DNA from: a virus
DNA: 36,942 bases
Virus record (IMG/VR): IMGVR_UViG_3300036766_000278
Location: 1 to 36,942 of that record
Direction: 5' to 3' (one strand)
The notes under the pieces were generated by a model. It was not told the DNA's origin and did not search any database. It saw only the letters and a list, made by a program, of their open reading frames with translations. Made by a program: the position numbers and the translations under genes. Shown in pieces: positions 1,309 through 36,942 of the stretch (within the stretch, counting starts at the first letter, position 1; each line of letters opens with the position of its first letter).

Positions 1309-2160
1309 TCAATCCTCCCAGGATAAATTACGGGGTTTTACGACGCGCGACAGCTTCGCCGGATCCACGAGGGCCACGGCTACAGCACTGCGGGAGCCTT
1401 GCGGGCAGGTGTCGTACCAGCCGCAGAACTTCGGGGAACACACCCGGCTCGTGGGGTCGGCCGGCAGGAACACGCCGGCCGCGATGCCGGCCGCCACGGC
1501 CCCGAGGCGTTCGAGAGCGGCCGAGGCGTCGGCGTCGGTCACTTCCGCCACGATGCTTACGGCCTTCGGGACCTTGGTCTTGACCAGCCCATCGAGCTGG
1601 ATGCGGTCGGGGGCATGGCCGTCCGTCGCCATGATGGCGGCTCGGTAGAGACCGAACTGTGCAGACCGCAGGTCACCCAGCGACGGTGCCTTTGCCGCGG
1701 TCTTCGTGTCGTGGATCGTGGTAGCGGTCTGGATGTCCACGCGGCAGACGATCTCCAAGCCGAGATCAGGCGAGTCCACCACCAACTCGCGCTCGACGTG
1801 CGTGGGTTCGATGTGCGGCGCGATGTGCTTGTGGTGGCAGGCTGCGAGGGAGGCCGCCAAGTCGATCGCAGCGCCGAGCGCCGCCGCCTCGTTCTGGCCG
1901 TCCAGGACCGGCGCCTCCTCAGACCAGCGCCGGGTGACCGACTCGCTGGCGATGGCTTGCGGGGCGCCATCCTCCAGCAGCTCGCCCGTGTCGAGCTTCG
2001 AGCGCATGTCGCGTTCCACTGCCTCGTGCGTCCCGGAGCCCACTAGCAGCGCGACCCCCGGGGGCCGGCGCTCGCCACGCGCATAGCGATAGTACCATTG
2101 CAGGCCACAACGCAGGTACGTGTTCGCCTGCGAGAACGATAGATGCGGCTTGTCGCTCAC
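1309..2160 (-). CDS. PD-(D/E)XK nuclease, RecB/Cas4-like
   Basis: This 283-residue protein has the layout of the PDDEXK_1 family (RecB C-terminal/Cas4-type exonucleases). The N-terminal signature LSFSQANTYLRC carries Cys18. His45 is in GTHEAVE. The core acidic residues are Asp142 (CRVDIQ) and Asp151-x-Lys153 (HDTKTA), followed by Gln168 and Tyr172 of the QxxxY motif. A C-terminal cluster Cys241-x4-Cys246-x5-Cys252 together with Cys18 could hold a 4Fe-4S cluster, as in Cas4 and AddB. The start is GTG at 2158-2160, overlapping the stop of the upstream mini-gene (GTGA). Next to an ERF annealing protein, it probably resects DNA ends for single-strand annealing, a job analogous to lambda Exo with Beta. 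The pairing is inference; the fold call is strong. Confidence 0.88.
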   Translation of the reverse strand: MSDKPHLSFSQANTYLRCGLQWYYRYARGERRPPGVALLVGSGTHEAVERDMRSKLDTGELLEDGAPQAIASESVTRRWSEEAPVLDGQNEAAALGAAIDLAASLAACHHKHIAPHIEPTHVERELVVDSPDLGLEIVCRVDIQTATTIHDTKTAAKAPSLGDLRSAQFGLYRAAIMATDGHAPDRIQLDGLVKTKVPKAVSIVAEVTDADASAALERLGAVAAGIAAGVFLPADPTSRVCSPKFCGWYDTCPQGSRSAVAVALVDPAKLSRVVKPRNLSWED

Positions 2161-2288
2161 GGCGCCACCTTGCCGGTTCGGCGCGGCCGCGACATGGCCT
2201 CACTGACGCGCTGCCTTGCACCCCATGACTCGTCTACTCCGACAACTACGAGTCGGCCAAACCGCTGGCCCACCGCCAGGACACTCAC
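2157..2288 (-). CDS. 43-aa protein with GQRFGRL motif, possible remnant
   Basis: This small ORF lies exactly between the ERF gene and the nuclease gene. Its GTG start overlaps the ERF stop and its TGA overlaps the nuclease GTG, so all three are coupled. The sequence VGQRFGRLVVVGVDES resembles the first segment of many phage and mobile-element proteins that begin G-x-R-F-G-R-L-x-V and continue into a CDCG zinc element with HNH or AP2 domains. That continuation is absent here, so it may be a truncated remnant or just a coupling peptide. Function unknown. Confidence 0.45.
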   Translation of the reverse strand: MSVLAVGQRFGRLVVVGVDESWGARQRVSEAMSRPRRTGKVAP

Positions 2289-3142
2289 TGTTTCACCGTG
2301 ATAGAGCGCAAAAACAGGACGGCGTTGTTCGCCTCGTCGTCGGTCTGGCTCATCAAGTTCGCGATCGGATGGCCCGCGCGGTCCTGCACCACCTCCATCA
2401 ACGCTTCTATCGAGGTCAGGCCGGCGGCACGGCCGATGTCCACGAACTTGACCCACGAGCGCAGCTCGGCCTGCGCGCGGGTCATCTCGGCCGGCGTCAG
2501 ATCTTTGGACGAGGCGATATCTCGCTCGCACACTTGCGTGAGGTAGGCGAGGCGGCGCACCCGCTCGGCCTCCTCGCGCTCCTTGCCCTTGGCGTCGATG
2601 CCGTAGCTAACTCCAGCCTCGTTCATCAGCGCCATGAGGGTCTTGAGGTCATTGGGCTGCGTTGCAGGGGCTTTTGGGGGCGGCACGATCTCCGTCGTGA
2701 GCTTCTTCGGTGCGGGGGGGGCCGGCGCCTTCGCCACCTTCGGCGGCTGGGGTGTGGCCTGCCGTTGCGGCTGCGCCCGCTCTGCGTCATCGTCATCCTC
2801 CCCCGCGAGCGACAGCACGGATTGCAACACATAGCGGCGCGCGTATGTGATCGCGCTGCCGCGCTCCTGCGGCGTGGCGCCACTCAGCGGGTACTCTCCG
2901 CAGTCGAGGGACTCGCCCGACGCGTGTAACACCGTCGTCGATAGTACCAGGGCGCCGGCAGGGTTCGTGCGCGGGGCCTGGACCACGACCAGGCCGTTCG
3001 CGGCGAGGGGGCCAGCCGCGCACGCAAGAATCTCGTCGAGCGGCGCGAAACGTGCGTGAAAATGCGGGTTGACGGCGGTCTTCTTCGGGGTCGGCATGTC
3101 GCGCCGCGCCGCGGACAGGGCCTCGAACAGGAGCTTGCTCAT
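2285..3142 (-). CDS. erf: ERF-family single-strand DNA annealing protein
   Basis: The protein has 285 residues. NPHFHARFAPLDEIL (about 25-39) and GSAITYARRYVLQSVLSL followed by AGEDDDDAE (about 95-121) are diagnostic of the ERF superfamily (P22 Erf type), which anneals complementary single strands in recombination and genome circularisation. A Pro/Ala-rich linker (about 123-162) leads to a helical C-terminal domain of about 120 residues. Within that, residues 190-208 resemble part of the small protein coded at 6659-6850. Start ATG at 3140-3142 follows GAAAGG at 8 bases and overlaps the upstream stop. The downstream nuclease makes a two-enzyme recombination module likely. Confidence 0.93.
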   Translation of the reverse strand: MSKLLFEALSAARRDMPTPKKTAVNPHFHARFAPLDEILACAAGPLAANGLVVVQAPRTNPAGALVLSTTVLHASGESLDCGEYPLSGATPQERGSAITYARRYVLQSVLSLAGEDDDDAERAQPQRQATPQPPKVAKAPAPPAPKKLTTEIVPPPKAPATQPNDLKTLMALMNEAGVSYGIDAKGKEREEAERVRRLAYLTQVCERDIASSKDLTPAEMTRAQAELRSWVKFVDIGRAAGLTSIEALMEVVQDRAGHPIANLMSQTDDEANNAVLFLRSITVKQ

Positions 3143-10434: not shown

Positions 10435-10872
10435 ATGCCTCGCGCCCCGCGCCGCAAGAACCCCGCCGAGGACATCCTCCAACAGATGCTCGTTCGCGAC
10501 ATGAAGATGCTCGAACGCGCCAAGGTCCTTGCCGCAAAACCACCCAGCGAGGATGCCGACCTGACCGCCGGCGACCTCCACCTCGCCGAGGCCGCGCGTA
10601 CCGCGCACAACCGCGTCCCCTTCTTCCTCCACGACGCCGCCGAGATGCGCACCATCACCATGAAGCGCGAGGAGTCCCACGCCGAGAAGCCCCCCGTCTT
10701 CATCGTCGTCGCTGACCCCCTCTCCATCGAAGCCTGGGAGCGGCAAGCCCACGCGCTCCAGGCCCAGCACGAGAACGAACGCCTCCACGAGCTGGTGGGC
10801 GTCGCCGTCGACGTCGAATCAACACCCGTCGTCCCGCCACCACGCTTCGCCTGGACCAAGGACGAGGAATGA
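10435..10872 (+). CDS. Likely terminase small subunit, 145 aa
   Basis: The call rests on position directly before TerL (ATGA overlap, stop 10870-10872) and on a helical, charged N-terminus (ILQQMLVRDMKMLERAKVLA). No HTH is obvious. The ATG at 10435 has no clear Shine-Dalgarno. TAGAAT (10422-10427) lies about 8 bases before the ATG, so a leaderless transcript is possible but unproved. Would recognise the packaging site if correct. Confidence 0.55.
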   Translation: MPRAPRRKNPAEDILQQMLVRDMKMLERAKVLAAKPPSEDADLTAGDLHLAEAARTAHNRVPFFLHDAAEMRTITMKREESHAEKPPVFIVVADPLSIEAWERQAHALQAQHENERLHELVGVAVDVESTPVVPPPRFAWTKDEE

Positions 10873-12344
10873 GCGACGAGGACGAGAAGACCGCCGCCGT
10901 CTGGGAAGCCTCCCCGGCCCAGTCCCATTACATGCAGTGCCCCGTGTACGAAGTCCTGTACGCCGGCGAGAAGGGCTCGGGCAAGACCGAAGGACTGGTG
11001 ATGGAGCCGTTCTACAAGGTCTTCGCCCAGGCCCAGAAACGCTATGCCGAGACGGGAAAGCGTACGCACGCTTGGGTCCTCTTCCTCCGCAAGGAACTCG
11101 GGCGCCTGAAGGAAGTCATCGACCGCGCGAAGGAGCTGTTCCCCGGCATCGACCGCGAATCAGCCACCAGGCCAGGCTACGGCTGGTCGCAGCAGGAGAA
11201 AATCTACCGCTTCATGAACGGCTTCAAGTTCGAGTTCGGTCACCTCGAAGAACCGGGCTCCCACCTCGTCTATCACGGTCGCCAGTTCTTCCGCGTCATC
11301 ATAGATGAGGCCCCCGAGATACCGCCGCACCAGATCGCCTACATGCACTCGTGCATCCGCGTGAAGAAGAGCGACGAGCCCTACCTACAGGACAACCTGG
11401 GCATCCGCCTATCTGGCAACCCATACGGTCCCTTCGTCGCAGCCATCAAGAAACGCTTCGTCGACGCCGGCCCCCCCAACACCGTCGTCCGCGAAGAGGT
11501 GGAGCTGCCTGACCACCGCAAGGTCATGCGCGAGCGCGTGTTCATCCCGGCCCGCCTCAAGGACAACCCCCACATCGACTACGACTCGTATGCCGCATCC
11601 CTCGCCGGACTCCCCGAGGTCATGAAGCGCGCCTTCCTTTATGGTGACTGGGATTACGTCCCCGGCGCCTACTTCGACGGCTTCGACGACCGCATCCACG
11701 TCCGCAAGAACATCGAGCCGCCCCCTGGCTCCCGCATCCAGCGCTGCGGTGACTGGGGCTCCCGTGAGCCGGCTTGCTGCCACTGGTACACCACGGACGG
11801 CGACGGCAACATGATCTTCCTCGACGAACTCTATGGTCCAGGACAGGACGGACCCCACTGGGGCCAGGAGATCCTGAACCGCGAGATCGCACGCGGCTGG
11901 CGCTCGTCGGAGATCGACGGACACCTCGACCCTGGCGCATTCAACGACCCCGGAAACTCCTACCCATCGCCCGCCGAGCAGATGCTCGCGATGGGCGTCG
12001 TCTGGTACGAGTCCGACAAGTCCCCGGGCTCTATCGTCCTCGCCTGCGTGGAACTCACCCGCCGCCTCGCCGCCAGGACGCCGGCCGGGATGCCTGGCGT
12101 CACCATCGACGCGCGGTGTAAGCACCTCATCGAGCAGATCAAAAAGGTGCAGGCAGATCAAGACAACCGCGACAAGATCGTCGAGGGGCGCGAAAACCAC
12201 GCTTTCGAGTCGGCGAGGGCCGGACTCCTCGCCAACCCCATGCCGTCCGAACAGCCGTCGCTCGAGCGTGAACTCGGAGTCTGGCGTCGCATCGTCGCCG
12301 GACAGGAGCGGCAGACCGGCAAGAACTCCTGGTACCCGATGTGA
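10869..12344 (+). CDS. terL: Terminase large subunit
   Basis: This 491-residue protein is the packaging motor and nuclease. Walker A is GEKGSGKT (33-40) and Walker B VIIDE ends at Asp146-Glu147. The C-terminal RNase H-like nuclease has Asp295 (RCGDWGS), Asp319-Glu320 (MIFLDELYG) and Asp354 (GHLDPGAF), the usual three acidic positions. The length suits Terminase_6-type large subunits. It cuts concatemers and threads DNA through the portal coded next. A 66-bp gap without a gene follows. Confidence 0.93.
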   Translation: MSDEDEKTAAVWEASPAQSHYMQCPVYEVLYAGEKGSGKTEGLVMEPFYKVFAQAQKRYAETGKRTHAWVLFLRKELGRLKEVIDRAKELFPGIDRESATRPGYGWSQQEKIYRFMNGFKFEFGHLEEPGSHLVYHGRQFFRVIIDEAPEIPPHQIAYMHSCIRVKKSDEPYLQDNLGIRLSGNPYGPFVAAIKKRFVDAGPPNTVVREEVELPDHRKVMRERVFIPARLKDNPHIDYDSYAASLAGLPEVMKRAFLYGDWDYVPGAYFDGFDDRIHVRKNIEPPPGSRIQRCGDWGSREPACCHWYTTDGDGNMIFLDELYGPGQDGPHWGQEILNREIARGWRSSEIDGHLDPGAFNDPGNSYPSPAEQMLAMGVVWYESDKSPGSIVLACVELTRRLAARTPAGMPGVTIDARCKHLIEQIKKVQADQDNRDKIVEGRENHAFESARAGLLANPMPSEQPSLERELGVWRRIVAGQERQTGKNSWYPM

Positions 12345-12410: not shown

Positions 12411-14585
12411 GTGCCGCTCCTTGATGCGCCGGCCGAGATGCTTGGTCCGAACACCGGCATCCCAGTAGAAGCGCAAGGCGATCCGCCCGAGATCGTCAAT
12501 CTCGTCACCGAGTTGTCCGAGGACGAACTAAAGGATCTGGCGAAGGCCGTAGAACAGGGTTTCGAGGACGACCGCACCTCACGCGAGCCCCGCATGCGCC
12601 GCATGCGCAAGGCGCAGAAGTTGGTCGCCTCCGACCTCGACCCGAAGACGGTTCCCTTCCAGAACGCCGCGAACGTCAACGTCCCTGTCCTGCTGAACGC
12701 GCTGCGGCAGTACAGTTCCAGGCTTTGGGACATGCTGGTCCCAGGCTCTGGGAATATCAGCCACGTCAACGCGACCTCGGTCAAGAACGTCGAGCGGGCG
12801 CAGGCGGCAGAGCGGTACTTCAACAGCTTCATCAAGTACGAGCTGCCCGTCTATGCCCTCTCCTGGTACCAGACGATCTACCAGGTTTGTGGCCCCGGCT
12901 CGGGCTTCCGGCGCCGCTGCTACGACCTCCGCGAGAAGCGCATCCGCGTGGATTCCCTCTCGATGGAGAACGTTGTCGTCTCCTACAACGAGCAGAACCT
13001 CGACCCCACCATGCGCGGCGTTCGACGGTACTCCGTCGTGCTCCGCATGGACGAGCGCGAGATGGCCCCACTCCTCGCCGACAAGACGTTTGTGCTCCCG
13101 AAGGACGAGGGAACGAAGGGCCTGAACACGGGCGACGACGAGATCCCCAAGAGCGAGTTCGCGAAGGGCATCGACAAGATCGACGGCGTGAACCCGCCCG
13201 CCGACAGCAAGACCACCCGACAGCCGCACTCCATCATCGAGCAGTATCTCTGGTGGAAGCTGCCGTCGAAGAAGAAAGTCCCAGGCTTTGACGGCGAATG
13301 GCACCCCATCATCGCCTGGCTCGACGTCCGCTCGCGCAAGGTGATGCGCGTCGTGCTCCGCGAGGAGGACGATCCGACCGACAAGCGGCGCTTCGACCGT
13401 CAGGTACAGGACAAGAAAGACTGGATGGCGGCGCTCATGATGCGCCAGCCCGAGATGGACGAGATGGGGAACGCCGTCCCCGGCAGCATGGAGATGCAGC
13501 CCGAGCCCCCCGAGCCCGAGCCCGTCCGCCAGCGCGAGACGTGCTTTCTACTTCACGTCCGCGGCTTTGCCAGCGATGGCTTCTACGGCTCAGGGTTCTA
13601 CGACACCCTCGGCGCCCTGAACGCAGCCATCAACGTCATCGCCAATCAGGTCATCGACACCGGCACCATGAAGAATGCGGGAGGTGGTTGGTACTCCTCC
13701 CAGATCAGGATGCCAACGGGTGGACTCTCGTTCTCGCCCGGCGAGTATCACCGCATCGAAGGCCCGGCCGCCCTCCTCAAGGACGGCATCCGCGAGCGGA
13801 TCTCTCCGGAGCCTTCCGTCGTCTCGATGCCGATGGTGCAGTTCCTCCAGGGCTCTGCCGAGCAGGCCACATCATCGGGTGGCGTCATGTCCGGCGAGAA
13901 GCCTGCCTCCCACGAGGCCGCCACCACCACACAGATCCGTGTCGAAGAGGCCCGCTCGCAGATCCTCGTGCTCGCCCGCCTCATCGCCATCGCCATGTCG
14001 GCCGAGTTTGTCGGCCTGTGGCGCGACCTCTCCCTCTTCCTCGACGAGAACGAGGCCCAGCGCGTCGTGGACGACGACGGCACCGTCCAGGAGTACCGCC
14101 TCAAGCGCAGCGACTTCGTGGCAGACGCCGACGTGATGCCATCGGCCGACCCTGGCGTCACCTCGCAGAGCGAACTCGTCGCCAAGGCGCAAGGTTTCCT
14201 CGGCGCAGTCATGCAGAACCCGCTCACCGCCCAGAGTCCCGAGATGGTTCGCGCCGCTACTGTCGATTACCTCTCCGCCATCGGTAAGCGTGCATACGTC
14301 AAACTGATCCCACCAGCGCCGCCACCCGGTCCACCCCCTCCGGTCCCTCAGTGGAAGGAAAACGCCGGCTTCCTGATGGAGCAGGACTCCCAGGTCAACC
14401 CGCAGGACGACGACGACGAGCACCTTCACGAGATGGGCCTCTTCCGTGGCGACCCGTACGGCTACGACCACCTCACGCCGACCGGCCAGAAGATGTACGA
14501 CGCCCACGCGCGCGCCCACATGGCCAGCAAGCTTATAAAGGAGAGGACGGCAGACCATGCCCCCCAGCAACTTCAAGCCGTTTGA
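12411..14585 (+). CDS. Portal protein, 724 aa
   Basis: The GTG at 12411 follows AGGG at 8 bases. The length is close to P22 gp1 (725 aa). The pattern ANVNVPVLLNALRQYSSRLW near residue 90 and NAAINVIANQVIDTG near 405 is typical of dodecameric portal proteins of large podovirus type. A Pro-rich segment (PPAPPPGPPPPVPQW, about 635) and an acidic DDDDEH tract lie near the C-terminus. It forms the ring through which TerL pumps DNA and to which the tail machine attaches. Gene order TerL-portal supports this strongly. Confidence 0.88.
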   Translation: MPLLDAPAEMLGPNTGIPVEAQGDPPEIVNLVTELSEDELKDLAKAVEQGFEDDRTSREPRMRRMRKAQKLVASDLDPKTVPFQNAANVNVPVLLNALRQYSSRLWDMLVPGSGNISHVNATSVKNVERAQAAERYFNSFIKYELPVYALSWYQTIYQVCGPGSGFRRRCYDLREKRIRVDSLSMENVVVSYNEQNLDPTMRGVRRYSVVLRMDEREMAPLLADKTFVLPKDEGTKGLNTGDDEIPKSEFAKGIDKIDGVNPPADSKTTRQPHSIIEQYLWWKLPSKKKVPGFDGEWHPIIAWLDVRSRKVMRVVLREEDDPTDKRRFDRQVQDKKDWMAALMMRQPEMDEMGNAVPGSMEMQPEPPEPEPVRQRETCFLLHVRGFASDGFYGSGFYDTLGALNAAINVIANQVIDTGTMKNAGGGWYSSQIRMPTGGLSFSPGEYHRIEGPAALLKDGIRERISPEPSVVSMPMVQFLQGSAEQATSSGGVMSGEKPASHEAATTTQIRVEEARSQILVLARLIAIAMSAEFVGLWRDLSLFLDENEAQRVVDDDGTVQEYRLKRSDFVADADVMPSADPGVTSQSELVAKAQGFLGAVMQNPLTAQSPEMVRAATVDYLSAIGKRAYVKLIPPAPPPGPPPPVPQWKENAGFLMEQDSQVNPQDDDDEHLHEMGLFRGDPYGYDHLTPTGQKMYDAHARAHMASKLIKERTADHAPQQLQAV

Positions 14586-14853
14586 CGATCTATCCAAGGA
14601 AGACCGCGAAGCGTGGCGCGGGCTGCCGACAACGCGCGCCTTTCGGTCCCTCCTCGGCAAGCTCACGTACCAGACCAGGGACGCCATGATGGCTTGTGCA
14701 GAAAAGGGCGAGGACGTGCGCGTTCTAGTCGGCAAAGCTCGCGCCTACGAGGCGATCATGTCGGAAGTGCTTTCAGATCCGCCCGACGCCACGGCCGCGC
14801 CGGTTGAGGAGCCCTTCATCGACCCGGCCGACGTCTTTAAGGAGATGCAGTGA
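14557..14853 (+). CDS. Hypothetical protein, 98 aa, overlaps portal end
   Basis: The ATG at 14557 is 29 bp inside the portal gene, with AAGGAGAGG upstream. The sequence is helical and soluble (FDDLSKEDREAWRGLPTTRA), with an acidic tail. Similar small acidic ORFs often sit between portal and capsid genes in phages, sometimes as assembly factors. Function unknown. Confidence 0.72.
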   Translation: MPPSNFKPFDDLSKEDREAWRGLPTTRAFRSLLGKLTYQTRDAMMACAEKGEDVRVLVGKARAYEAIMSEVLSDPPDATAAPVEEPFIDPADVFKEMQ

Positions 14854-15290
14854 AATACAACGAGATCCTCGGCCATCCAGCGAACGACCGCCTACTCGTC
14901 GAACTCATCGATATCCCCGAGAAAACGGCCGGCGGTATCCACATCGCCCTCTCGACCCGACAAAACCTTGAGCGCACATCGGGACGCGGCATCATCGTAG
15001 ACGCCGGACTATCCGCGCGGGACACGATGCGATCCTACAAGTGGGAGATCGGCGATCAGGTCACATTCGGTAAGTTCGCCCCCGTGTACATGGCGGGAAC
15101 CGAATGGGACGACGCCGAGGGGCGCAACCATCGCGGGATCATCCTTGTTATCGGCGACGTGTTCACCAATGTATCGATGGCCGCCCGGCTCAACGCCGGG
15201 ACCGTGAAGATCGAGTTCAACCACGAGATCGCGCAGCACGTCGCCGTTGCTGCAACCAAGAACGGAGCGACGCATGCCATCGCCGTCTGA
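14850..15290 (+). CDS. GroES-like co-chaperonin
   Basis: The GTG overlaps the upstream stop (GTGA). The 146-residue product has the Cpn10 pattern: NDRLLVEL (12-19), the mobile-loop sequence EKTAGGIHI (24-32, as GroES K-S/T-A-G-G-I), GRGIIVDAG (45-53) and WEIGDQVTFGKF (65-76), then RGIILVIGDVF. GroES-type proteins cap GroEL and enlarge or tune its chamber. Cellular GroES has about 97 residues; here a C-terminal extension of about 40 is added. Phage T4 gp31 is a precedent in which a phage replaces GroES to fold its capsid protein. Lying between portal and scaffold suggests use of host GroEL for this phage's head proteins (inference). Confidence 0.85.
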   Translation: MKYNEILGHPANDRLLVELIDIPEKTAGGIHIALSTRQNLERTSGRGIIVDAGLSARDTMRSYKWEIGDQVTFGKFAPVYMAGTEWDDAEGRNHRGIILVIGDVFTNVSMAARLNAGTVKIEFNHEIAQHVAVAATKNGATHAIAV

Positions 15291-16176
15291 GGAACTGACC
15301 GACGACGCCCCCGAGCACGACGAATCTGCGGCGTCTGAGCCTGAAGTAAGGGCGCGTCCAGAGCCAGAGATGGCGCCGGTTCCCGCCCCGCTGGCGCCCA
15401 TCCGACGCGGCGCAAAGCAGGCGTTCGACGAGGTGGCGAAGCTCCGCGACGAGTTCTCCAACTACCGCAGCGAGTCAGAGAAGAAGTGGAACTCCGAGCG
15501 GGAGACGTGGCAGTCCGAGCGCCAGCGCCTCGCCGAGGACACCCGCGCCGCCCGCGAGGCGGCCGACCGCGCCGCGCAGGTCAGACCACGCGACGACGGC
15601 GCGAACGCCGACCGCGACTACGCAGATGCCATCAAGGATCTCACCGGGAAGCGATGGCGCGCAGCCCAGAATAACGACTCAGCCGCGTGGGACGAAGTGG
15701 ATAGCGCAATACGCGAGCTTGAACGCGAGCGCATAAGGCGCGACGTGACGGCCGACATCGAGAAGCGCATAGCCGACTCTCGGCCTCCCGAGTTGCCGCC
15801 TGAGATCGAAGAGCTCGAGCACGAGTATCGGAACCTCGTGGTCAAGCCAGGCGCCCGCCAGACCATCGGCGCCTTCGACTCCGCTCTAGCCGCTCGCGGG
15901 GAACCCAACGGCGCCGCGCGCTACCGCAAGGCGTTCGAGCAGGCCGCCATCGCATACGGCGTCAAGGATCCGCCGGCTGCCGAGAGACAGACATCCGCCC
16001 AGCGCGCCCGGTCACTCCCTGGTGGCGGAGGAGCTGGTGGGACGAACGGTGGCGGCGGGAAGCCGCAGGCAATGATGCCGCCGGGATGGCGCGACGTCGC
16101 CAAGCGCGAGAATATGTCCGAGGACGAATACACCCGGATTTGGATCAAACATCACCCGGAGATGATCCAAGATTAG
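15274..16176 (+). CDS. Scaffolding protein candidate, 300 aa
   Basis: The ATG at 15274 follows GGAG at 7 bases. The N-terminal 45 residues are acidic and Pro-rich. Residues about 50-110 are charged coiled coil (KLRDEFSNYRSESEKKWNSE). Then comes a helical middle and a glycine-rich linker (SLPGGGGAGGTNGGGG) before a basic/acidic C-terminus ending HHPEMIQD. Composition and position between portal and capsid genes match scaffold proteins, which shape the procapsid and then leave. No sequence family is identified. A 133-bp gap follows. Confidence 0.65.
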   Translation: MPSPSEELTDDAPEHDESAASEPEVRARPEPEMAPVPAPLAPIRRGAKQAFDEVAKLRDEFSNYRSESEKKWNSERETWQSERQRLAEDTRAAREAADRAAQVRPRDDGANADRDYADAIKDLTGKRWRAAQNNDSAAWDEVDSAIRELERERIRRDVTADIEKRIADSRPPELPPEIEELEHEYRNLVVKPGARQTIGAFDSALAARGEPNGAARYRKAFEQAAIAYGVKDPPAAERQTSAQRARSLPGGGGAGGTNGGGGKPQAMMPPGWRDVAKRENMSEDEYTRIWIKHHPEMIQD

Positions 16177-16309
16177 CTTGACAAGCGCCACGCTATAGCA
16201 CAGCGTTTGTATTCGTAGCGTTGTCCGTGAGTTCGCCGGGACGCTCCCACATCAGCCAGCTACTCGGGTTCGTGAGTCCACCGAACGAGGAGGCGGCAGG
16301 GAGAGTCCC
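16177..16309 (+). other. 133-bp gap between scaffold and next gene
   Basis: TTGACA occurs at 16178-16183, but no good -10 lies at 16-18 bp; TATAGC at 16194 is too close and TGTATT at 16208-16213 too far. ACGCT (16190-16194) and AGCGT (16202-16206) form a 5-bp stem. The gap may hold an unusual promoter or a weak terminator; I see nothing firmer. GGGAGAG before the ATG at 16310 is a good Shine-Dalgarno. Confidence 0.4.
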
Positions 16310-16777
16310 ATGCCCGAGCCCACGACCGAACCGCAGACCCCGCAGAGACGCAAGGATCCGCCGAGTCGTCCGACGCAGCCGGAGGTTGTGAGGGCGGGAC
16401 TCGTGTCGGGCCGGTTCCTGAAGGAAGCCGGCTGGGTCTACCAGCGCATCCATCGGGACGACATGATGGCCCAGACCTACCCGCGCATGCTGGAGCCGCT
16501 GGGAAAGATGTTCGGAGGCTGGACGCCGGTGCGCGGCGACAAAAACGCCTTCCTGTACCGCCGCGCCGACGACTCCACCGACGAGACATTCGTGATGGAC
16601 GCTGACACGGTGTGGGGGTGTTGCCGCGAGGAGGAGCACGCGCTGCTCTTGGCCAACGAGGCCATGAAGCACGACAACCGAGTCAAGCTGCTCCGCACCG
16701 ACCAGATCGACGAAGGCCAAGTAACAACCGTCAACAAGTGGCGTGGTCCCGAAGGCCGCCCCGTTCTCGAAGACTGA
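16310..16777 (+). CDS. Hypothetical structural-region protein, 155 aa
   Basis: I do not recognise it. It has a disordered, Pro/Arg-rich start (MPEPTTEPQTPQRRKDPPSR), then a mixed core with WVYQRIH, FGGWTPVRGDKNAFLYR and VWGCCREEEHALLLAN. It sits between scaffold and decoration candidates, so a head role is likely. Confidence 0.7.
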   Translation: MPEPTTEPQTPQRRKDPPSRPTQPEVVRAGLVSGRFLKEAGWVYQRIHRDDMMAQTYPRMLEPLGKMFGGWTPVRGDKNAFLYRRADDSTDETFVMDADTVWGCCREEEHALLLANEAMKHDNRVKLLRTDQIDEGQVTTVNKWRGPEGRPVLED

Positions 16778-16787
16778 GGAGAGACCC

Positions 16788-17381
16788 ATGGCAAACAATG
16801 CGAACAACGTCAGTGGCTTCGAGGTCTACCGCCACCGGAGCGGCAAGGCCGTTACCACCATCGAGCGCCCGCTCAACGCGACCCACGCGGCAATGCACGC
16901 CGGATCCTTCGTGAAGCAGGACACCGGGGCCTTCACCTGGATCAAGGCCGTCGCCGGTGATTCGATCTCCAGTCTCGCGGTCGGCTTCCGCTTCAACGAC
17001 GCCTCGGGCAAGGAGGTCCAGTCGGACTTTATCGATGCCAACGTCGCCGGCTTCGTCACCATGATCGACGATCCCGCGAACTGCGAGTACATCGGCATCC
17101 TGTCGAAGGCGGTCATCGCGAACGCCACGACGCTGAACTTCGACATCATCAACGGGACCGACACCGCGGCGAAGTCGCTCCAGACCATCGATGGCGGCAC
17201 GACCACGACTCCCGCAACGACCACGCTTCAGTTGCGCGGCGTGCGCTACCTGAAGAAGCAGGGCGACGACAACGCCCTCGGTGACGATGTGACCGCCGAT
17301 CTCGCGCGGCTCATCGTCCGCATCAACAAGGTCCAGAGCGATCAGGCCCTGGGCACCGTAACCGCCGTCGGCGCGCCGTAA
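16788..17381 (+). CDS. Capsid decoration/stabilisation candidate, 197 aa
   Basis: The ATG at 16788 follows GAGGAGA at 6 bases. The protein is beta-rich with many Gly, Thr and Ala and no membrane part (GFVTMIDDPANCEYIGIL; TIDGGTTTTPATTT loop). Its place immediately before the major capsid gene matches decoration proteins such as lambda gpD, but no family is recognised. Expected to be abundant, judging by its strong Shine-Dalgarno. Confidence 0.6.
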   Translation: MANNANNVSGFEVYRHRSGKAVTTIERPLNATHAAMHAGSFVKQDTGAFTWIKAVAGDSISSLAVGFRFNDASGKEVQSDFIDANVAGFVTMIDDPANCEYIGILSKAVIANATTLNFDIINGTDTAAKSLQTIDGGTTTTPATTTLQLRGVRYLKKQGDDNALGDDVTADLARLIVRINKVQSDQALGTVTAVGAP

Positions 17382-17406
17382 CCCTAGGAACTGAGGAGAC
17401 ACCACC

Positions 17407-18324
17407 ATGCCCGCAGGCGTACAGACCATCAGCGACTGGTTCGCGGCTCACGAGCCAGTCGTCTACAAGCATATCAATCTGGGCAAGACCCAGCACAAGA
17501 AGGTCTACGATAAGATCTTCAAGGTCGGAGAGACCAAGTACCAGATCGAAGACCAGGCTGTCTGGTCCGGTCCCAACACGTTCGATCGCCATCTGGAAAA
17601 CCAGACGATCGAGCCGAAGAAGATCACGGTCGCATGGAAGAGCCGCAAGACGGCGGTGTTCTATACCGCCATGCTGACCGCCTCCAAGGAGTCGCTCATC
17701 GGTGAACGCACCGACGGCGCTCTGCGGCGCAAGGCCGAGCGGATGGGCCTGGCGGGCGAGGTCACGCCGGATTGGCTGACCGCGCTCTTCCTCGACCGCG
17801 GCTTCACCGACGTCACCATCGGCGACGGCAAGTCTCTCTACGCGACCGACCACAACCTGGGCCAGCATGGCACCTTCTCGAACATGTCGAGCGACGCCCT
17901 GTCGCACGCCGGTATCGAGTCGGCCATGGTCGCCCTGTCGCAGATCAAGAACTACGACGGCATCCCCGAGGCCCTGGACGTCGGATGCATCGTGGTCCAC
18001 CCCACCAAGTGGCCGCTGCTCCAAACGCTCATGAAGACCGAGAAGCGCACGGGCGGACTCTTCAACGACGTTTCCTTCGTCCACGACGAGGGCGGCGGAT
18101 GGGACCGAGTGCCCAACCGCTTCCTGCAAACCACGACCTACTGGCACCTCATCACCGAGGTCACCAAGCGTGGCGACGGCCTGTTCCTCAAGTGGCTTGA
18201 GGAGCTGAACTACGTGCGCGATCAGGTGCAAGCGCAGCGCACGGCTCAGTTCATCGGAGCCATGGGCCTGATGTACGGCTGCTACGATCCGCACGGCGCC
18301 TACGGCTCGAACGCGGTCACCTAA
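17407..18324 (+). CDS. Major capsid protein, Mu gpT-like
   Basis: The ATG follows GAGGAGACACCACC. The 305-residue product has the layout of Mu-like gpT and related HK97-fold coat proteins: DFxxx early strand region (KKVYDKIFKVGETKYQIEDQ), KSLYATDHNLGQHGTF (about 140), DALSHAGIESAMVAL (about 161) and the DVGCIVVHPTKWPLL segment (about 194). It ends in YGCYDPHGAYGSNAVT. The HK97 fold forms the icosahedral shell. Its position after scaffold and decoration candidates fits. Similarity to gpT is by pattern, not alignment. Confidence 0.82.
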   Translation: MPAGVQTISDWFAAHEPVVYKHINLGKTQHKKVYDKIFKVGETKYQIEDQAVWSGPNTFDRHLENQTIEPKKITVAWKSRKTAVFYTAMLTASKESLIGERTDGALRRKAERMGLAGEVTPDWLTALFLDRGFTDVTIGDGKSLYATDHNLGQHGTFSNMSSDALSHAGIESAMVALSQIKNYDGIPEALDVGCIVVHPTKWPLLQTLMKTEKRTGGLFNDVSFVHDEGGGWDRVPNRFLQTTTYWHLITEVTKRGDGLFLKWLEELNYVRDQVQAQRTAQFIGAMGLMYGCYDPHGAYGSNAVT

Positions 18325-18345
18325 CCGGAAAGGGGCGGCTCCAAC

Positions 18346-19191
18346 ATGGCCGCGACTTCTTGGCGTCTTTGGGGACGGCTGGCCTCTACCGGGCCGGCCT
18401 CCCTCATCGCACCCGTGCATTTCCGCGCGGCCCCCGGCATCAACGTGCTGTGGGTCGATTCCCTGAACGGGGACGACGCGAAATCTGGCCACAACAAGGA
18501 AGAACCGAAGAAGACGATCGAGTCGGCCGTAGGTGCATCCGAGAACGGGACCATGATCGTTCTCCTGCCTGGGTTCGACCAGGCGGTCCCGTCCGTTATC
18601 AGTCTGGGAACTCCGGTGGGCTTTTCGATCGTAGGGCAAGGGGAAGGAGCCCAGCAAGCCATACTTCGCACCGCTGACGCCGACGGCCTGATCTCAAGCG
18701 GAGGCGGCCTCACCCTGGAAAACATCAGATTCCCCGAGTCGGAGATCGCGCTCACGTCTCCCAAGATTACCGTAGAGTCTGGCGGCAATCTTCGCATGCT
18801 GGACTGCCTAGTTGAGTGCGGAACTAACGACGTGCGCGCAGCGGTCTACAACAACCTCAGCACATTACGTACGAGTGGCTGCACCTTCCGCGTCACATCC
18901 GGCCACCCGCTGCAAGCTATCAAGCACGCCGGCGGAATTACGGAGATTGATACCTGCCTAATCGACGGTGGCGTGTTCGGATGGCGTGACAACGCCGGTG
19001 GCCATCAGGTGGCCGTCGAGGCTGCCGTGTCTGGGTTCCTTGACATGCACGCATCGAAACTCCGCGGTCACTCCGATGTGTTCGTTCACGTCGATACAAC
19101 CCTGGTGGTTGCAGATATTCGCTTCGACGTTGCTTCTGACCGCGGCGACGATTGCTCTGTCCTGTTCGAGGTGGCCGGGGAGTTCGGATAG
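18346..19191 (+). CDS. Right-handed beta-helix protein, 281 aa
   Basis: The sequence VDSLNGDDAKSGHNKEEPKK then TIESAVGA and MIVLLPGFDQ (about 37-80) is the entry motif of pectate-lyase/parallel beta-helix proteins. Residues 110-270 have the repeating short-strand, turn and stacked residue character. No catalytic triad is evident. The beta-helix directly after the capsid gene is unusual; it may be a capsid-bound decoration or a receptor-binding appendage. No signal peptide; the AAPGI at about 28 is not one. Confidence 0.65.
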   Translation: MAATSWRLWGRLASTGPASLIAPVHFRAAPGINVLWVDSLNGDDAKSGHNKEEPKKTIESAVGASENGTMIVLLPGFDQAVPSVISLGTPVGFSIVGQGEGAQQAILRTADADGLISSGGGLTLENIRFPESEIALTSPKITVESGGNLRMLDCLVECGTNDVRAAVYNNLSTLRTSGCTFRVTSGHPLQAIKHAGGITEIDTCLIDGGVFGWRDNAGGHQVAVEAAVSGFLDMHASKLRGHSDVFVHVDTTLVVADIRFDVASDRGDDCSVLFEVAGEFG

Positions 19192-36651: not shown

Positions 36652-36828
36652 GATCAAGCGACGCGGCAGGCTACGCTGCACGCGGTTGGGCCATGGCCCG
36701 GATGGTGACGGCGAGGGCGATGACGTGCCGGGCCCAGGCCGAGCGCCTAGCCCTGCGGCCGTTGTAGCGAGATAACCCGCACTCGAAGTTGCCGCCGCAG
36801 CGGTCGATCGCGGCGCCAGAGCGGTCAC
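36652..36828. other. No gene called before the end repeat
   Basis: Short frames exist on both strands, but none has a good start and family signal. The minus strand has a frame entering from the right-end repeat and ending at 36625; it could be the tail of a protein coded beyond the edge, but it overlaps the small CPAC gene. I see no promoter or terminator that is convincing. Confidence 0.4.
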
Positions 36829-36942
36829 GACCTCGACCCCGACCCCGACCCCGACCTCGACCTCGACCCCGACCCCGACCCCGACCTCGACCTCGACCCC
36901 GACCCCGACTCCGACCACGACCTCGACCCCGACCACGACCTC
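36829..36942. repeat. Right-end hexamer repeat, 19 units
   Basis: Nineteen hexamers of GACCCC or GACCTC (with GACTCC and GACCAC variants near the end) run to the last base. A 30-bp block of five hexamers at 36841-36870 is repeated exactly at 36871-36900. Plus-strand frames read D-P/D-L or R-P, minus-strand frames G-V/E-V. No start codon opens the D-P/D-L frame inside the window. Confidence 0.9.

Follow-up and report, generated by a model that had tools for sequence, protein, structure and literature searches.

Does an open reading frame (ORF) lying among the head genes of an environmental virus encode a GroES-type co-chaperonin, and if so, with which chaperonin and on which client would it act? 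The window, i.e., the whole stretch of DNA analysed here, comprises the 36,942 nucleotides of IMG/VR record IMGVR_UViG_3300036766_000278. At positions 14850–15290 of its plus strand, a first-pass annotation made from the letters alone had placed a GroES-like co-chaperonin with a Cpn10 domain, and both the coordinates and the frame proved exact. The ORF, encoding a protein of 146 residues and 15.9 kDa, begins with a GTG codon at 14850 preceded by an AAGGAG Shine–Dalgarno motif, and its stop codon ends at 15290. Its 5′ end overlaps the stop codon of a 98-residue ORF and its 3′ end overlaps the start of a 300-residue gene, indicating translation within a compact cassette of head genes. Against its counterpart in the nearest relative, IMG/VR contig 3300037264_001285 (L002), the gene has a dN of 0.39, well below the dS of 1.16, and is thus maintained under purifying selection.

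The Pfam profile search assigned the ORF to PF00166 with 28.1 bits (E = 2.1e-6) against a curated cut-off of 21.1, and no sequence family except Cpn10 scored above its cut-off; PHROG 3188, 'co-chaperonin GroES', agrees (E = 9.2e-6). We aligned the protein with 121 viral relatives, one contig being represented twice, and with the textbook sequence of E. coli GroES. In this alignment, residues 7–110 cover the whole Cpn10 domain. Individually, 102 of 109 family members match PF00166, and a profile built from these 109 reaches solved Cpn10s at E-values from 4e-8 to 6e-25. An AlphaFold2 single-chain model computed with the 109 members as input has a mean pLDDT of 83, and every one of the 22 PDB chains that Foldseek matched to it at E ≤ 0.001 is a GroES/Cpn10. 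Structural comparison by VIA-align likewise placed Cpn10 chains in all of the top 16 rows (Z 6.7–10.2), with Z values of 10.2 for H. thermoluteolus GroES, 8.6–9.0 for E. coli GroES and 8.3–8.7 for T4 gp31. Alcohol dehydrogenase domains, which also have a GroES-like fold, gave the best non-Cpn10 rows and were rejected as the identity of the protein at Z 5.7 and below. With no better match to another beta-barrel family, the ORF is confirmed as a genuine phage-encoded Cpn10/GroES homolog.

The genes around it, all on the plus strand, include those for the terminase large subunit (10869–12344; PHROG 979, E = 1.8e-26) and a 724-residue, 80.7-kDa portal protein (12411–14585; PHROG 1216, E = 7.2e-11). 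The 98-residue ORF (14557–14853) has no family match and overlaps both the portal and the Cpn10 genes; most relatives likewise have at least one small ORF in its place. Thus, the order portal, Cpn10, scaffold given in the first-pass annotation holds, except that this small ORF separates portal from Cpn10. The scaffold assignment itself must be qualified: the 300-residue gene (15274–16176) matches no family in Pfam or PHROG, and its probable scaffold role is deduced from its position and the acidic composition of its product (pI 5.2). Two genes of conserved position follow, encoding 155 (16310–16777) and 197 residues (16788–17381), which are respectively 56% and 65% identical to their L002 counterparts. 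Further downstream lies the gene for a gpT-like major capsid protein of 305 residues and 34.1 kDa (17407–18324), which matches Pfam Mu-like_gpT (22.4 bits) and PHROG 371, major head protein. The gene order of L002 is identical. Between the window (14850–19191) and L002 (73–4417), the capsid protein is 87% identical and all compared neighbors are 49%–65% identical, Cpn10 at 55%; the difference could reflect strong constraint on the capsid protein or a recent exchange of its gene.

Is this placement of a co-chaperonin gene exceptional, as had first been proposed? Portal, capsid and Cpn10 searches reached twelve annotated phages, from cyanobacteria, from alpha-, beta- and gammaproteobacteria and from environmental samples, and each carries exactly one Cpn10 and no Cpn60. 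They share with the window the order portal, small ORF(s), Cpn10, genes of about 300, 155 and 200 residues, and gpT-like capsid protein. As exceptions, QDWS535 has a gap between portal and Cpn10, and CRP-901/902 and some others have further genes there; the HTVC027P stretch stops short of its capsid gene. Among 161 distinct IMG/VR contigs with a related capsid gene, 123 carry Cpn10 upstream of it, ending 1.8–3.3 kb before the capsid start; the remaining 38 have under 2.7 kb of sequence ahead of the capsid gene, in most cases too little to reveal a Cpn10 gene. Cpn10 is present in all 104 contigs whose sequence extends over 3.5 kb upstream of the capsid gene. When the Cpn10 profile was run against the 10,258 ORFs from all loci, no locus gave more than one match, and every match lay on the plus strand. 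Two controls with gpT-type capsids and a head protease, Mu and Faecalibacterium phage FP_Mushu, are devoid of Cpn10. A GroES match in a 'Listeria phage' record was left out, the record being an unannotated wastewater contig.

These IMG/VR relatives were found through capsid genes. Distant relatives gave alignments of too great a diversity for use as queries, and neither the Cpn10 nor the terminase of the window retrieved any relatives from IMG/VR. Beyond the window and L002, no third close relative was found, nor did the window's capsid gene turn up in bacterial genome contigs. GroES is listed among the 13 genes that form the core of HTVC023P-type pelagiphages (PMC9599517), and the published drawings of the CRP-901/902 genomes also show it (PMC10149686). 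Given this published status and the same place throughout the group, the head-module position is an established trait of a known group; our literature search, with subscription literature mostly outside it, found no paper discussing that position as such. The Cpn10 is thus a fixed part of the head module of this phage group, and the window's copy adds a divergent member to an arrangement already known and does not represent a new system.

With which chaperonin would such a lid work? No Cpn60/GroEL is encoded in the contig, which is perhaps incomplete, in line with the first-pass annotation; host GroEL is therefore the likely partner, as had also been proposed there. Both contig ends probably arose by breakage at repeats. 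At the left, an open frame of at least 435 residues on the minus strand (1–1305) runs off the contig and ends in about 75 four-residue repeats of the A-A-T-x/D-A-T-x type, derived from a 12-bp tandem repeat in which three tRNA-Thr calls are probably spurious; at the right edge (36828–36940) lies a 6/30-bp CGACCC tandem array. Also on the minus strand (1309–3142), a PD-(D/E)XK exonuclease and an Erf-type annealing protein stand close together as a recombination pair.

We consider it likely that the protein is a GroES-type lid that docks on host GroEL, so that a phage head protein, most probably the gpT-like capsid protein, folds inside. In this putative model, seven Cpn10 copies would form a ring, whose mobile loops would dock on host GroEL and close the folding chamber. 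The capsid protein encoded in the same operon, or possibly another head protein, would then fold in the chamber. The basis for this lid is the Cpn10 sequence, the predicted fold, the retained mobile loop, the lack of an encoded GroEL, the recurrent gene order and purifying selection.

The mobile loop EKTAGGIHI (residues 24–32; 14919–14945) retains both the GG motif and the hydrophobic tripeptide (IHI, residues 30–32), with His as the middle residue of the tripeptide. Loss of these residues in relatives would have spoken against a GroES function; in fact, position 30, the first of the tripeptide, is Ile, Leu or Val in 121 of 122 aligned sequences. The third residue is polar in about half of the relatives (58/121 of the hhp pattern), so GroEL binding may differ among them. 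In GroES of Alcaligenes phage QDWS535 (L004:3531–3872), the loop carries an insertion and is aligned without the GG motif. The polar residue and this insertion, together with the adjoining scaffold gene, would suit a protein that has kept the Cpn10 fold but lost its function with GroEL and serves the head in another way, for example in its structure or assembly. We regard such a role as very unlikely, since a protein of this kind would have no reason to keep the mobile loop, whose first tripeptide position is almost always Ile, Leu or Val.

Compared with cellular Cpn10, the protein has four additional residues (40–43; 14967–14978) between the mobile loop and the strand that follows. The spacing from Ile30 to Gly53 is 23 residues in the window and 23–25 in all 121 aligned viral relatives, compared with 19 in E. 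coli GroES, and the same four-residue gap appears when the profile is aligned with five cellular Cpn10 sequences of solved structure. The first-pass annotation had pointed instead to a C-terminal extension of about 40 residues. The extension exists and measures about 36 residues beyond the Cpn10 domain (residues 111–146; 15180–15287); it is absent from E. coli GroES. Its proposed standing as a family feature was not borne out, for among the 121 aligned viral relatives it occurs at full length only in L002, where 12 of 36 residues (33%) are identical, compared with 68 of 110 in the Cpn10 domain. No reproducible fold could be assigned to it, as the models disagree: a helix and a beta-hairpin are predicted for the window, and helices, at low confidence, for L002. 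The extension is most plausibly a tail specific to this lineage, and the insertion of at least four residues after the tripeptide is the better candidate for a structural signature.

The lengthened segment bears on the earlier suggestion that the capsid protein needs a special folding cage. The mobile loop of T4 gp31 has 22 residues, compared with 16 in GroES, a difference held responsible for the slightly larger chamber that takes up the 56-kDa capsid protein gp23; gp31 also lacks the roof (PMC6318259). By analogy, the present lid might enlarge or reshape the GroEL cage through its longer mobile-loop segment, common to all aligned relatives and seen against the solved Cpn10s as well, and through an altered roof, which in the window has 15 residues, compared with 18 in E. 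coli, and is modeled as a helix. However, the roof of most relatives is as long as that of E. coli or longer, and the capsid protein lies far below the cage limit while the portal protein lies far above it. At 34.1 kDa, the capsid protein should fit an ordinary GroEL chamber, so that its size does not call for a larger one. The special cage is thus weak on size, yet left open by the family-wide lengthened loop. We rate enlargement as rather unlikely; the likeness of the lengthened loop to that of gp31 is one of form, with a putative effect on the cage.

The client was also approached through co-evolution. Over all relatives, Cpn10 and capsid distances correlate with a rho of 0.85, which stems largely from a split into two sets; within these sets, the values fall to 0.33 and 0.11, compared with 0.64 and 0.57 for scaffold and capsid distances. 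The weak within-set correlation lends no support to the capsid protein as client. It would agree with a lid for general takeover, in competition with host GroES for GroEL, that assists the folding of many phage proteins during heavy late expression without a special client, as would a 34.1-kDa capsid protein in need of no enlarged cage and the finding that gp31 can generally replace GroES (PMC6318259). We hold this possible though doubtful, because the fixed place in the head cassette suggests a link with head assembly. For the lid acting on a head protein, the capsid protein may be considered the likeliest client by its position and the parallel with gp31.

Phage co-chaperonins are understood mainly from T4, and a widespread group in which GroES always accompanies a small gpT-like capsid gene offers a simple second model. 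The group also poses the question of why a phage should bring its own lid when the host cage should fit its capsid protein. A further proposal, which we put forward tentatively and think somewhat unlikely, is that the gpT-like head module of this group requires a dedicated GroES with a mobile-loop segment about one helical turn longer than in cellular forms, a trait acquired independently of T4 gp31. If true, this GroES would represent a second lineage of capsid-dedicated chaperonin lids.

Among known systems, HTVC023P-type pelagiphages, roseophages CRP-901/902, Pag-Yong1, DSL-LC04, QDWS535 and Caulobacter phage RW likewise have Cpn10 between the portal gene and the gene in scaffold position. 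As in the window, all of these have a gpT-like capsid gene downstream of Cpn10 and no GroEL; their GroES proteins are about 20%–29% identical to the window's, and several have N-terminal extensions instead of a C-terminal one. T4 gp31, named at the outset as the known parallel, is the right functional one: it is a phage Cpn10 without a phage GroEL, matches PF00166, and has a similar predicted fold and a mobile-loop region longer than that of GroES (PMC6318259). However, its sequence matches that of the window's protein at about 1 bit and in the loop region alone, and no sequence relation to gp31 over the whole domain was found. Its gene lies outside the head cassette, and its client gp23 is about 56 kDa (PMC6318259), compared with 34 kDa here. 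Bacterial GroES shares the Cpn10 domain, the mobile loop and a fold match over the full domain, at roughly 20%–28% identity in structural alignments; it differs from the window's protein in lacking the four extra residues after the tripeptide and the C-terminal extension, while the phage gene has no adjoining groEL.
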